Shown: piece by piece, positions 50,277-56,236 of the stretch
Layout: the number at the start of each line of letters is the position of its first letter
Position numbering within the stretch: position 1 is the stretch's first letter
Notes under the pieces: model-generated
The model's input: only the letters and a program-made list of their open reading frames with translations
Databases searched by the model: none
What the model was told of the DNA's origin: nothing
Program-made: the position numbers and the translations under genes
Origin: Desulfovibrionaceae bacterium
GTDB lineage: Bacteria; Desulfobacterota; Desulfovibrionia; Desulfovibrionales; Desulfovibrionaceae
Direction of reading: 5' to 3'
Length of the DNA stretch: 64,000 nucleotides
Assembly (NCBI GenBank): GCA_009773665.1
Contig: WSYE01000004.1
Coordinates: 52,456 to 116,455, forward strand

Positions 50277-51665
50277 CTACTGCTCGGCGGGCACGCTCTT
50301 GCGGGCGCAACGCCTGACGGCGTGGGCCAGGGCCTCCAGCCGGAAGGGCATGTCCATGACTTCAGCGGGGGAACGGCCCAGGCGGGGGATCTCCTTACTG
50401 GCCACGCTTCGCACCAGGACGTAATTCACGCGCCCCAGTTCCTCCAGTCGGCGGGCCAGGGCTTTGGGTTCCCCGTGCCAGAACACCACGGCGGCATCGG
50501 CCTTGGCGTCTGCCTTGCCCTTGCCGCTTCCGTTGCCGTTTCCCTTCCCGGCCTGGCTGACCGAGAGCCCGGACGAACCGAGGCTTTCGGAGAGGATGTC
50601 GCCGATGGCCTGGTCGGAACTTATAACCGCGACCCGCACGCGCGGCTCTTTAGGGGCGGCCTCTCCGGGCGGACCTGCCTCGCGCCGGGCAGCCTGGAGC
50701 AGCGCCTTGAGCCGCGCCAGGACGAACCTCTGCTCCGTGCCGGGCTCAGGAGGCGTACCGCCCTGCTCTGGCGATTCAAGAAGGCGCACCAAGGCCAGGG
50801 CCTTGTCCAGGGCCTTGCCGATCTCCGGGTTCGGCTTGCCCTGCCCGCGCATGGGGGAGGACTCGCGCATGCGCACCAGCGCCCCTTCCATGAAGGCAGC
50901 GGGAGAGGAGGCCACCGTTCCGGCGGACAATCGGGCCTCGTCCAGGGACCGGGCCAGGGCCAGCATGGCGCGCCCGGCGTTGGAGGCCGGGTAGAGTTCC
51001 ACCAGGGGGCGCTGCCTCCCGGCGGCGGCTCCCACGTGCGGATCGCTTGGGATGTGCCCCAGGAAGTTGGCGTCGAGCTTCAGGTACTTGCCCATGGCCC
51101 CGCGCAGGCGGCCAAAGATGTTTTTCGCGGACTCGGCGGACGCGGCCCGGTTCACCACCACGTTGGGGCTTCGGCGCAGGCCGTTCTCGAAGAGCACCTT
51201 GACCAGGGCGTAGGCGTCCGTGAGGGAGGCGGGGTCGGGGTTTACCACCACCAGCAGTTCCGGGCAGGCCAGGCACAGCGAGATGACCTGGCTTGAGATG
51301 CCGGGGGAGCCGTCCACAATCAGGTAGTCGTAGCCGTCCAGCTTGGCGAACTCCGTGGCCAGGGTGGCGCGCGACTCGCGCGAGAGGTCCGCCAGCCGGG
51401 ACACGCCGGACCCGCCGGGGATGACGTCCAGCCCAGGACCGGCCCGCAGGATGGCCGCCTCCATGGGCACGCCCTCGAAGAGCACGTCCTCGAGCGTGAG
51501 CTTGGGGGATATGCCCAGCAAAACGTCCACGTTGGACAGGCCCAGGTCCGCGTCCAGCAAGCACACGGTCCGGCCCATGCGGCCAAGCGCCAATGACAGG
51601 TTGACTGAAATGCTCGTCTTGCCCGTACCGCCCTTTCCGCTGGCAACGGACAGGATTCGGCTCAC
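50277..51665 (-). CDS. MinD/ParA-like ATPase with C-terminal receiver-like domain
   Basis: 462 aa from GTG 51665 (VSRILSVASGKGGTGKTSIS), with AAGGA about 8 nt before; the longer ORF has no supporting motif. Walker A at 9-18 (SGKGGTGKTS), then CLLDADLGLSNVDVLLG and YDYLIVDGSPGIS, the deviant-Walker MinD pattern. After a Pro-rich, helical linker, residues 342-462 (RVRVAVISSDQAIGDILSES...VMDMPFRLEALAHAVRR) have the strand/helix layout of a response-regulator receiver, but no phosphoacceptor Asp stands at the expected strand (VVFWHG). It is close to FlhG-type positioning ATPases; the partner is unknown. The next gene upstream is the hybrid kinase. Confidence 0.85.
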   Translation of the reverse strand: MSRILSVASGKGGTGKTSISVNLSLALGRMGRTVCLLDADLGLSNVDVLLGISPKLTLEDVLFEGVPMEAAILRAGPGLDVIPGGSGVSRLADLSRESRATLATEFAKLDGYDYLIVDGSPGISSQVISLCLACPELLVVVNPDPASLTDAYALVKVLFENGLRRSPNVVVNRAASAESAKNIFGRLRGAMGKYLKLDANFLGHIPSDPHVGAAAGRQRPLVELYPASNAGRAMLALARSLDEARLSAGTVASSPAAFMEGALVRMRESSPMRGQGKPNPEIGKALDKALALVRLLESPEQGGTPPEPGTEQRFVLARLKALLQAARREAGPPGEAAPKEPRVRVAVISSDQAIGDILSESLGSSGLSVSQAGKGNGNGSGKGKADAKADAAVVFWHGEPKALARRLEELGRVNYVLVRSVASKEIPRLGRSPAEVMDMPFRLEALAHAVRRCARKSVPAEQ

Positions 51666-51690: not shown

Positions 51691-54351
51691 TCACCGTGAG
51701 GCCCCCTCTTCCAGGAGCCTGCTGGCCTGTTCCAGCAGCTCCTCCACCTGGAAGGGCTTGCGCAGGCATGCAGCCGCGCCCAGCGCCTTGGCCTCGCTGA
51801 GTTCCTGCTCACTGGCCATTCCCGTCAGCACCAGCACGGGCATGGCAGGTTCGGCGAAGCTGTTGGCCTCGCGCAGGAGCGACAGCCCATCCCGGCTGGG
51901 CATGCGGATGTCCAGGATCATGAGCTGGTAGCGGTTCTGGCGCAAAAGCGACAGGGCCACCTCGCCGTCCTGGGCGACCTCCACGGCGTAGCCCTTGGAT
52001 TCCAGGGACTCGCGCAGAATCTCGCGGATGCTCTGTTCGTCGTCCACCACGAGCACCGCCTGCCTGGGCGTCCTGGAGGCCATGGGAAGGCCCGAGTTCC
52101 TGGCCGGGGCGGTCAGGTCGCGCGGCAGGACCAGGCTGAAGACCGAGCCGGAACCCGGTTCGCTGCTTACGGAGATGCGTCCCTTGTGCGCGGCCACGAT
52201 TCCGTACGCGGTGGAAAGCCCGAGCCCGGTACCCTTGCCCTCGGCCTTGGTGGTAAAGAAGGGGTCGAAGATTTTTTCCAGGTTTTCCCGAGGGATGCCA
52301 ACGCCCGTGTCGGAGATGCTGAACATCACCGAGTCGTTCTCGGTGGAATAGCTGATCCCGGCGGTCAGGACCCCGCCAGCGTCCTCCATGGCGTGCTGGG
52401 CGTTCAGCGCAAGGTTGAGCAGCACCTGCTCCATCTGGCGCGCGTCGGCCTTGATGTCGGGGATGGCCCCCCGATAGTCCCGGCGGACCTCGATGCCCTG
52501 GCTTCCCATGCTGCCTTCCAGCAGGCTCAACACCCGGTCCATCACGTCGCGCGGATTCATGGCTTCCATGCGCGGGGCGGCCGGACGGGCGAAATCCATC
52601 AGACTGCCAAGGATGGCGCTGATTCGCTCGATCTGCTCCCCCATCTGGCGCAGGCCCTTTTTCTTGGCCTGGTCCTCCTCGCGCATTTCCAGAAGCTGGG
52701 CGCGGGCCGAAATGATGGCCAGGGGGTTGTTGATCTCGTGCGCCGCGCCTGCGGCCAACTGGCCCACGGCGGCGAGGCGCTGGGTCTTCAAGAGCTTGTC
52801 GTTCATGTCCTGCATGGAGCGCATCACCTGGGCCAGACGCTCGGAGCGAAGTTCGCAGCGGCCCACCAGCTCGATATGGCGGAAGGCCTGCGCCGCCAGC
52901 TGGGCCAGCAGGCTGACCGCCGTGCGCTCCTCGGGCAGGACGCGCCCGGACGCGGGGCGGTACAGCAGCTCTCCGAAGGATTCAGCCCCGTCCGTCAAGG
53001 TCACCATGGCCACGCCGTCCTGGAAGTGGATGGGCGGGCCTTCGGGTCCGGCCAGGGCGGATGCCCTGGTGCGCCAGCCCGTCAGGTGGTCCAGGAACTC
53101 GCGCGGGAGCCCCACGGGACTGTCGGAGTCGTCAGGCCGCAGGTTCTCGTCCAGGGGGATGTCCACGGGGCGCGGCCCGCCGCCGAACCCCCAGGCATGG
53201 CCCGTGGCCGAACGCAGCACCGGCTCGATCACGCAGGCCAGCCCGCCAGGGGAGGCGAACCGCTCCTGGATGCACCGGGCCAGGGCCAGCAGCACGTCCT
53301 GGGGAGTGAAGGCCTTGGCGATCTCCACCCCGGCCTGGGCCACGCGCCGAAGCGCCATGGCGTCGCGCTCCAGGGTCTGGTTCTTGCCGGTCAGGCCCAG
53401 GGTGGCTTCGCCCAGACGCCGGTTGGCTCGGCCAAGGGCGTTGAAATAGAAGGAGGCTGCGTCCTCCTTGAGAGCGAACAGGGAGGCCCGCTCGGCAAAC
53501 AGGCTGCCAACGCCCGCGCGAACCTCGCGCAGCGCCGCCGAGCCCTCAAGGCCCAGAGCGGAAGCAAGACCCAGGCAGTCCGCGTCCTCGAAGCCGCTGG
53601 GCACCGTTCCCATGGCCTCATGGGCCAGCCGGTCCGCCAGAGCAACCATGAGGCTCACGGTCGCACCCTCGCCCGCTCCCAGCAGGGCGCTGGCGGGCTG
53701 GTGGTGCATCCAGGCTGCGTCGATGAACACGTCCGGCAGCTTCCAGCGCTCCAGGAGCCACTTCCCGGCCAGACAGTGGTCTGCCCCCAGGGCCTCCTGC
53801 TCGGCGGCGACGAGACGCTGGCCCACCAGGAACTCGTCACGCACCAGGGAGACGTAGCCTTCGCCCCCGGCGCTGATCAGGGCCAGCTTGCCGCAGTCGT
53901 GCAGCAAGCCCGCCGCGAAAGCGGCCCCGCACAGGCCTGGCCGGGCCTTTTCGGCCAGCAGCTTGGCCGCGCAGGCGCAGGCCAGGGAATGCCGCCAGAA
54001 CTCGCGCACCAGGGGATCGCCCGCGTCGAAGGTGTTGAAGAGCCCTTCGCGCACGCACACGCACAGGGCCACGGTGCGCACCACATCGGTGCCCAGCAGC
54101 ATGGCCGCCTGGCGGATGTCGTCCACCTTCTCCACGCGGTTGAATCCGGCGGTGTTGGCGAGGCGCAGCAGCTGGGTGGAAACGGATGGATCGGCCTCGA
54201 TGGCCTCGACAAGCTCTTGAAAGTCGGGGAACTCCCTGGTCGCTATTCCAAGAATACGGGCAGCCGAGGCGGGCGCGGAAGGAAGCTGTTCCATGCTCTC
54301 GATGAGCTTGCGCATCCGGTCGGTGGTCTGCTTGGGCGGGTCCTGACGCAT
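51691..54351 (-). CDS. HDOD-GAF hybrid histidine kinase with C-terminal receiver
   Basis: 886 aa, no signal or membrane helix, so soluble. Residues about 15-230 are an HDOD domain (LPSAPASAARILGIA and GLLHDCGKLALI), then a GAF-like region (about 350-480), HisKA with the phospho-His at residue 538 (GAAHEINNPLAI), HATPase (NLALNAQHAMED, DTGVGIPRENLEKIFD, GTGLGLSTAYGIVAAH) and a receiver with Asp 814 (LMILDIRMPSRDG). Downstream is the MinD-like ATPase on the same strand, 25 bp away. The response regulator/HD-GYP gene is divergent, with 210 bp between them; they could be a pair. Confidence 0.92.
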   Translation of the reverse strand: MRQDPPKQTTDRMRKLIESMEQLPSAPASAARILGIATREFPDFQELVEAIEADPSVSTQLLRLANTAGFNRVEKVDDIRQAAMLLGTDVVRTVALCVCVREGLFNTFDAGDPLVREFWRHSLACACAAKLLAEKARPGLCGAAFAAGLLHDCGKLALISAGGEGYVSLVRDEFLVGQRLVAAEQEALGADHCLAGKWLLERWKLPDVFIDAAWMHHQPASALLGAGEGATVSLMVALADRLAHEAMGTVPSGFEDADCLGLASALGLEGSAALREVRAGVGSLFAERASLFALKEDAASFYFNALGRANRRLGEATLGLTGKNQTLERDAMALRRVAQAGVEIAKAFTPQDVLLALARCIQERFASPGGLACVIEPVLRSATGHAWGFGGGPRPVDIPLDENLRPDDSDSPVGLPREFLDHLTGWRTRASALAGPEGPPIHFQDGVAMVTLTDGAESFGELLYRPASGRVLPEERTAVSLLAQLAAQAFRHIELVGRCELRSERLAQVMRSMQDMNDKLLKTQRLAAVGQLAAGAAHEINNPLAIISARAQLLEMREEDQAKKKGLRQMGEQIERISAILGSLMDFARPAAPRMEAMNPRDVMDRVLSLLEGSMGSQGIEVRRDYRGAIPDIKADARQMEQVLLNLALNAQHAMEDAGGVLTAGISYSTENDSVMFSISDTGVGIPRENLEKIFDPFFTTKAEGKGTGLGLSTAYGIVAAHKGRISVSSEPGSGSVFSLVLPRDLTAPARNSGLPMASRTPRQAVLVVDDEQSIREILRESLESKGYAVEVAQDGEVALSLLRQNRYQLMILDIRMPSRDGLSLLREANSFAEPAMPVLVLTGMASEQELSEAKALGAAACLRKPFQVEELLEQASRLLEEGASR

Positions 54352-54561: not shown

Positions 54562-55936
54562 ATGGCTCAACACAAGACGCGCATCCTGCTGGTGGACGAT
54601 GAACCGGGCGTGCTTGAAGTCTGCGCCGAAACCCTCGAGGGGATCGCCTCTTCCGTATCCACCGCGCGCGACGGGCTTGCGGCCATGGAACTTCTGCGCA
54701 CTGACAGCTTCGACCTCATCGTGAGCGACCTGCGCATGCCCGGCATGGGTGGCCTGGACCTCATCAAGGCCGCAGGCACGCTGGCTCCTGACACCGACGT
54801 GATCGTGCTCACCGGCTACGGCGGCATCGAGAGCGCCGTGGAGTGCGTGAAGCTCGGCGCGGTGAACTACCTGCTCAAGCCCTTCAAGCTGGAAGCGCTC
54901 CGGGAAGCCGTCTGCAAGGCCCTGGAGGAACGCTCACTTCGCATCAAGCGCAGCACCTACGGGACGCTGGCGCAGATGCTCGCACTGAAAGACGCCATGA
55001 ACGGGCATGAGGATTCCAAGTCGCTCATCAAGCAGTTCCTCGGGCAGGTGAAATCCGCCTTTTCTCCTGACGGAATCGCCTTCTTCATCAAAGGTGTGAA
55101 GGACCTCGAGTCCGGCCCGCAGGTGCTCATCGGCCCCTATTTCCGCGACAACCCCGGCGTGCGCTCCTGGTTCGAGACCCTGAGCGCCTCCATGCCGCCG
55201 TCCCCAGTTCGGCCATCGGCGTCCCCGTGGAAGGCCAGAACGGGCCGCGCGGGGCCGTGGTTGCCTTACGGGCCGGAAATTCCGCACCCTACGGTCTGGA
55301 TGAGCTGAAGCTTTTGACCCTGTTTGCGGCCCACGCCTCGCTGTGCTTCGAGAGTAACCAGGCCTGCGCCAAGCTCAAGTCCGTCAACGGAGAGATCGTC
55401 TTCTCCCTGGTCCACGCCGTGGAGGCCAAGGACACCTACACCAGGGGCCACTCCGAGCGGGTGAGCCGCTACGCCACGAAGCTGGCGCGTTTTCTGGGCC
55501 TTTCCGAGGCCGAGGTGGAGCTGGTGCGCATCGCCGGAGTCCTGCACGACATCGGCAAGATCGGCGTTCCGGATAGCATTTTGAACAAGCAGGGGCCGCT
55601 GATTTCCCAGGAAGTGCCCGCCATGCGCCAGCATCCGACCATCGCGCGCACCATCCTGGGCAAGGTGGAGTCCCTCTCGGACGTCTTGCCCATCGTCTAC
55701 CACCACCACGAGCGCGTGGACGGCAACGGATACCCCGACGGCCTCTCCGGCGACGAGATCCCCTTCCTGGCGCGACTGGTGAGCGTGGTGGACGGATTCG
55801 AGGCCATGACCTCCGACCGCGCCTACCACAAGGCCAGGAGCGTCGCACCATCCTGCGCAAGGGCGCGGGCAGCCAGTGGGACGCGGAGCTTGTCAACGCG
55901 TGGCTCCAACTGCTGGACGCGCCCGGCGAGAACTGA
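54562..55936 (+). pseudogene. Response regulator with HD-GYP domain, frameshifted twice
   Basis: Three reading frames together encode one protein. Frame 1 (54562 on) has a receiver (TRILLVDDEPGVLEVC, LIVSDLRMPGMGG, VLTGYGG, LLKPFKLE) and a linker up to about 55200. Frame 2 carries a GAF-like part (SSAIGVPVEGQ) and HD-GYP: TRGHSERVSRYATKLA, GVLHDIGKIGVPDSIL, HHERVDGNGYPDGLSG. Frame 3 from about 55841 ends it (RRTILRKGAGSQWDAELVNA, stop 55936). One missing C in the CCCC at 55202 would explain the first lesion; the second, at about 55840, also lacks a few residues compared with the family. Either a decaying gene or assembly errors. Confidence 0.78.
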
Positions 55937-56236
55937 GCCCTTAAACAACCGGTCGCACAGTCGCAATTATTCGATATTATTACTGTTAAGTCACCACCAT
56001 TTGCCCTGACACACCCTGAAATTACCCACACAAGGTGAGTCAAGCTGGCCGAACTGACTGGAGTTGGCGTTGTCCTGCGACGCGCTGACGCTCATTCCGC
56101 CGCGCGGGCTCCGTACTTCGTGGGCGATGCGTCCAGCACAAATCCCTTGCTGGTGATGGAGGCAGCCAGTGGGCGCACTTACTGGTCAAGCATGCCTATC
56201 CATCGTCTATGCAGGCACCATGTCAAGTGATTACCA
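55937..56236. other. Intergenic stretch with possible gene remnant
   Basis: 300 bp. From 56041 to 56220 one plus frame is open and high in G+C (KLAELTGVGVVLRR...GDASSTNPLLVMEA), set between AT-rich sequence on both sides. It has no start and no identifiable family; it may be a fragment of a lost gene. Confidence 0.3.

Follow-up and report, generated by a model that had tools for sequence, protein, structure and literature searches.

A gene for a MinD/FlhG-type ATPase in Desulfovibrionaceae encodes, at its C terminus, a receiver domain that has lost its phosphorylation residues, and it lies directly downstream of the gene for a hybrid kinase whose own receiver has kept them. We think there is about an even chance (a probability near 0.5) that the two form a split kinase-ATPase system, with the ATPase gene as the output half and the state of the kinase controlling the ATPase via the dead receiver. 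Relatives of this ATPase place flagella and division sites, and control of MinD/FlhG-family ATPases is usually ascribed to the nucleotide cycle of the ATPase itself and to its partner proteins; if our reading is true, a kinase would control a member of this family. The genes lie in a stretch of DNA of 64,000 nucleotides (the window), in which the following features are relevant here.

50277..51665, minus strand: gene for the MinD/FlhG-type ATPase that ends in a pseudo-receiver; 462 aa from a GTG start
50931..51662, minus strand: ATPase domain, residues 2-245, deviant Walker A motif GKGGTGKT
50646..50930, minus strand: helical linker, residues about 246-340, predicted helices 255-269, 280-297 and 310-329
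50280..50645, minus strand: C-terminal pseudo-receiver, residues 341-462 (receiver-like 341-456), all five phosphorylation residues replaced
50502..50546, minus strand: low-complexity Gly/Asn/Lys insert in the b2-b3 loop, residues about 374-388, pLDDT mostly <50
51691..54351, minus strand: gene for the partner HDOD-HisKA-HATPase-REC hybrid kinase, 886 aa, 25 nt upstream of the ATPase gene
51694..52062, minus strand: phosphorylation-competent receiver (REC) at the C terminus of the partner kinase
54562..56009, plus strand: divergent response regulator gene with HD (HD-GYP-type) output, frameshifted here

An ATPase with a degenerate C-terminal receiver

The ATPase gene starts with a GTG codon at 51665, with AAGGA lying 8 nt ahead of it, and ends with a stop codon at 50277-50279. 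An earlier sequence-only reading had placed a MinD/ParA-like ATPase at exactly these coordinates, leaving the strand unstated, and Pfam likewise matched ParA/CbiA to residues 2-240. Long open stretches on the plus strand of the same interval were taken to be shadow ORFs, the gene being GC-rich. Because K11, K16 and T17 of the Walker A motif, D38/D40 and D118 of Walker B are invariant in 27 orthologues, the window protein should bind and hydrolyze ATP.

In a profile search of the PDB, the ATPase family came closest to FleN and FlhG (1.7e-75), with MinD well behind (3e-42), and the ATPase model superposed on FleN with a TM of 0.92 of the target at 40% identity. The NCBIfam MinD cut-offs were not reached (95.8 against 212.9 for minD_bact and 138.5 against 201.75 for minD_arch). 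The N-terminal DQAxxLR activator motif, visible in FlhG-type relatives, is absent from the window protein, which begins MSRILSVASGKGG, and the tree placed the family outside the flagellar FlhG clade, with 100/96 support for the separating branches. A membrane-targeting helix in the linker was considered and rejected, sequence prediction having found no MTS-like amphipathic helix at residues 251-275 (moment 0.07-0.21 in segments of this region). The term "positioning ATPase" that had been applied to the protein is therefore unproven: its closest relatives, FleN and FlhG, include an antiactivator, it lies outside the FlhG clade, it has no DQAxxLR motif, and no amphipathic membrane-targeting helix was found in it. 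A role in defense was dropped, PADLOC having left the ATPase unmatched.

The last 120 or so residues had been described as receiver-like, and profiles and predicted fold together establish that the C-terminal domain is a true, if degenerate, receiver homologue. Structure prediction, which the same reading had proposed as a check, gave no fold unrelated to receivers; AlphaFold built residues 341-456 as an alternating fold, in which, leaving the insert aside, block means of pLDDT were about 71-91. The model has five strands and helices a1, a3 and a5 (b1 344-349, a1 352-364, b2 368-371, b3 391-395, a3 400-409, b4 414-419, b5 435-438 and a5 443-456) and lacks helices a2 and a4. The matches listed by Foldseek against the PDB were receivers (best E 9e-5, probability 1.00, TM about 0.65), including those of CpaE (4dn6 and 4dad) as well as the FlrA FleQ domain. 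When the 46 orthologous pseudo-receivers were combined into a profile, its entire length matched solved response regulators with an E value of 4e-9, and HHalign of the pseudo-receiver family with the partner-kinase RECs gave a probability of 98.4 and an E value of 8.5e-15. Pfam, Response_reg included, found no match in the window pseudo-receiver and weak Response_reg matches in 3 of the 46 family members; the commonest weak match across the family was the Pfam FleQ domain (12/46, best 1.1e-4).

The FleQ matches, taken with FleN being the nearest solved relative, bear on a different reading, in which the protein is a FleN-like antiactivator that binds a sigma-54 activator, with the pseudo-receiver mimicking the FleQ N-terminal domain and motility or biofilm genes being controlled independently of phosphate. 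The FleQ-FleN complex is known to need the FleQ receiver (PMC10723142). However, no sigma-54 activator was recognized beside the ATPase gene in the window and the family stands phylogenetically apart from FlhG-type proteins, and we regard this reading as quite unlikely.

In the window protein the pentad columns hold S, S, F, R and M, the DD pair having become SS, the phospho-Asp F, the Thr R and the Lys M. The F is that of FWHG, rightly singled out from the sequence as occupying the phosphorylation site, and its counterpart in the alignment with the partner REC is the phospho-Asp. Since Asp occurs at this column in 0 of the 45 aligned family members (the 46th is gapped there), the domain is, judging from the alignment, a pseudo-receiver lineage-wide and not by local loss.

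These replacements, together with fast divergence (a mean column identity of 24% among the pseudo-receivers versus 55% among the kinase RECs) and the dropping of the domain by one clade, could be taken to mean that it is a decaying, functionless receiver relic. Against this, it has been kept in 46 of 51 ATPase loci over five families, its fold is intact, and a Pro and a Phe ahead of a5 are invariant or nearly so. The pseudo-receiver is also under purifying selection, with dN/dS mostly 0.03-0.37 and below 0.4, well under 1, in 11 of 12 close pairs, the exception being a pair with almost no synonymous change in this domain. A relic is thus highly improbable.

The Gly/Asn/Lys insert noticed in the first reading does exist, but it is not a meaningful feature. 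Apart from the window genome, just one other has it, the 95%-identical neighbor G003, and a functional role for it was rejected on the grounds that it is low-complexity, predicted to be disordered and limited to two near-identical genomes.

Linkage of the ATPase to an HDOD kinase

Pfam resolved the partner kinase into HDOD (residues 23-219), HisKA, HATPase and REC (residues 766-875), and the phosphorylation residues of the REC (D, D, D, T and K) are intact in 25 of 25 orthologues, in agreement with the initial description of an adjacent upstream hybrid kinase with a functional receiver. HDOD domains are usually considered inactive. In the HDOD domain of this kinase H151-D152, H192 and H216-H217 are invariant in 23 orthologues, and some residual phosphohydrolase activity is conceivable from these residues. 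Second copies of the HDOD kinase occur elsewhere in two genomes (G496:C31:51230-52708 and G520:C64:310186-311691).

Among 347 genomes of the order, the ATPase is present in 56, the kinase in 52 and both in 48. The ATPase family occurs in 23 of 59 genera, spread over five families, and the genomes sampled from genera g42 and g43 do not have it; the same fusion beside an HDOD kinase, which the sequence-only reading had proposed looking for in relatives, was found across the five families. In a sample of genomes covering this phylum, full-length matches were confined to the order. Beyond the phylum, a scan of contigs returned only an unrelated ferredoxin-type ATPase, and plasmid records matched the ATPase half alone, none covering 80% of the query.

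The kinase gene lies immediately upstream in 42 of the 46 loci with a pseudo-receiver versus 0 of the 5 without it (Fisher p 5e-5, with loci treated as unrelated and kinship ignored). These five loci, all from genus g33, form one clade nested in the family. The kinase and ATPase ORFs overlap in 13 of the 24 loci measured, in 7 of them by exactly 4 nt, and are 1-52 nt apart in the others. Four genomes had the kinase only. In two of these (G480 and G715) the contig breaks off within the ATPase gene; in the two true cases (G459 and G469, 99% complete) there is no ATPase at the locus, and the kinase, of about 765 residues, stops after HATPase and has no REC. Because the ATPase gene adjoins the codons for the REC, one contiguous deletion may have removed both, and as the two genomes are closely related the loss was probably one event. 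Conversely, three genomes of genus g25 (G030, G507 and G567) and G021 have kept the pseudo-receiver with no kinase adjacent and none genome-wide at E <= 1e-80.

When whole genomes were searched with the pseudo-receiver profile, the partner REC was the best non-self match in 6 of 7 carriers and the second in the seventh; in the window genome it scored 1.9e-14, with the next-best match at 4.6e-7. A tree of receiver domains, with very long branches, did not place the pseudo-receiver and the partner REC together, and such a grouping was not rejected (p-AU 0.35). The pseudo-receiver may have arisen as a copy of the partner REC, which the profile ranking favors and the domain tree does not show.

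Sister-clade fusions and a possible connector

In other families of the phylum (f40 and f62), ATPases of a sister clade (99/86 support) are fused in single proteins of about 1030-1057 residues with the order ATPase-HDOD-HisKA-HATPase, and G162 has a shorter ATPase-HDOD fusion of 766 residues. The longer fusions were Pfam-scanned in G092 and G426, and Pfam found no receiver match in either of them or in the G162 protein. Unfused sister-clade ATPases adjoin an HDOD protein, which lacks a kinase domain at L113 by Pfam and at L115 and L118 by sequence. The window ATPase, by its HDOD neighbor, falls within what we call the "HDOD-associated MinD-like clade," in which the ATPase adjoins or is fused to an HDOD protein. 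Because the sister-clade ATPases are likewise fused to or beside HDOD proteins, the association of this lineage with HDOD probably predates the pseudo-receiver.

Several of the loci in which a sister ATPase lies beside an HDOD protein (L113, L115, L118 and L119) also have a type II/IV secretion-type ATPase, with an MshEN domain confirmed by Pfam at L113 and recognized by sequence likeness at others. A link of the whole sister clade to pili or secretion is possible.

Across these cases a pattern recurs: where ATPase and kinase are fused there are no receivers; where they are split, a REC lies on the kinase and a pseudo-receiver on the ATPase; where the ATPase has been lost the kinase has no REC; and where the pseudo-receiver has been lost no kinase is adjacent. 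A noncovalent connector made of REC and pseudo-receiver would leave just such a pattern. We infer that the kinase senses by its HDOD domain together with its middle region and transfers phosphate to the REC at its own C terminus, and that the dead receiver of the ATPase, itself unphosphorylatable, would pair with the kinase REC or with the HisKA helices. The state of the kinase would then set whether the FlhG/FleN-like ATPase forms its ATP-bound dimer and engages its target, candidates for which are flagellar or pilus regulation, a sigma-54 activator and the localization of the kinase. More tentatively, and with rather less confidence than in control by the kinase as such, we suggest a two-polypeptide machine whose sole connector is the REC/pseudo-receiver pair, with the dead receiver as a dedicated docking plug that is gated by phosphorylation and brings the ATPase under kinase control. 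The low dN/dS, the linkage (42/46 versus 0/5), the overlapping genes, the REC-less kinases of G459 and G469, the fusions and the profile ranking count for a split system under control of the kinase; the fast divergence of the pseudo-receiver, the domain tree, the four carriers in which no kinase was detected and the chance that the joint loss in G459 and G469 was a single deletion count against it.

The signal could also run the other way, the ATPase regulating the kinase: the dead receiver would sit where HisKA docks and, according to the nucleotide state of the ATPase, block or permit transfer to the kinase's own REC. Linkage, joint loss and fusions are evidence for this reading as well, and inhibition of a kinase by a pseudo-receiver is documented, those of ShkA and CikA inhibiting autophosphorylation (PMC12632262). 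The HDOD proteins without a kinase domain that adjoin ATPases of the clade, however, fit the ATPase better as an output or HDOD partner, and no further output for the partner kinase was seen in the window operon. We consider reverse flow unlikely.

Comparison with known systems

The design is unusual, as the first reading had suggested, but there is a precedent, with the opposite domain order, in CpaE/TadZ. These proteins of Tad pilus machines (PMC13170226) also join a ParA/MinD-family ATPase and a receiver without phosphorylation residues in one chain. Their receiver, however, is N-terminal (the ATPase begins at position ~111 in the CpaE_hom model), whereas that of the window protein occupies residues 341-456, and this reversed order is why we do not class the window protein as a CpaE. 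CpaE/TadZ are encoded in a tad locus, the window gene lying in an HDOD kinase operon beside which no Tad genes were recognized, and they further have an amphipathic helix (PMC13170226), none having been found in the window protein; the window ATPase is far closer to FleN/FlhG than to CpaE/TadZ.

By analogy with CpaE/TadZ, the pseudo-receiver could be a polar localizer that targets the ATPase, and the kinase with it, to the cell pole. The shared domain content and the CpaE receivers among the fold matches favor this, and a report on FrzS describes a pseudo-receiver that controls polar localization (PMC1974792). Given the reversed order and the fact that no amphipathic membrane helix was found and no Tad genes were recognized next to the gene in the window, we think it very improbable.

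FlhG/FleN are the nearest ATPases by both sequence and fold, and in the FleN-FleQ complex FleQ likewise brings a pseudo-receiver to a MinD-like ATPase (PMC10723142). In the window protein, by contrast, the ATPase carries the pseudo-receiver in cis, and what it is linked to is a kinase; the ATPase also differs from FlhG/FleN in its separate clade, its lack of DQAxxLR and its neighbors, among which no flagellar genes were recognized. In cellulose secretion, the MinD-like ATPase BcsQ works with BcsE, a partner carrying a degenerate receiver; there the receiver is on BcsE, and it is the degenerate GGDEF domain of BcsE that binds BcsQ (PMC7439463). A dead receiver beside a phosphorylatable one in the same operon or protein is found, as here, in PleD and CmrRST (PMC12632262), where the output is a diguanylate cyclase or a transcription factor instead of a MinD-like ATPase.

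How pseudo-receivers are activated is called a mystery in a 2025 review devoted to them, which lists as a hypothesis that they pair with a true receiver and whose main text mentions neither CpaE nor MinD (PMC12632262). In a literature search with subscription journals mostly outside its scope, we found nothing on the kinase-ATPase pair and nothing joining "HDOD domain" with "ParA" or "FlhG" with "HDOD." The matched natural cases described here bear on how pseudo-receivers work: fused proteins, split pairs with REC and pseudo-receiver, and each partner alone would allow a direct test, by binding and activity, of a REC/pseudo-receiver connector.

The genes identified around the ATPase gene are those for the kinase and the HD response regulator and cupin genes. 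The HD response regulator gene lies beside the kinase in family f1 only. In the window it is broken by a frameshift near 55227-55308, which reflects either a pseudogene or an assembly error; its relatives are intact, at about 500-517 aa. At L107 (4634-9690) an ATPase-HDOD-HisKA-HATPase fusion of ~1030 aa is followed by a REC-PAS-HisKA-HATPase gene with two receiver matches. Finally, a short receiver protein without the Asp, a 177-aa open frame at L197 (G008:C5:139736-140092), lies outside this family.
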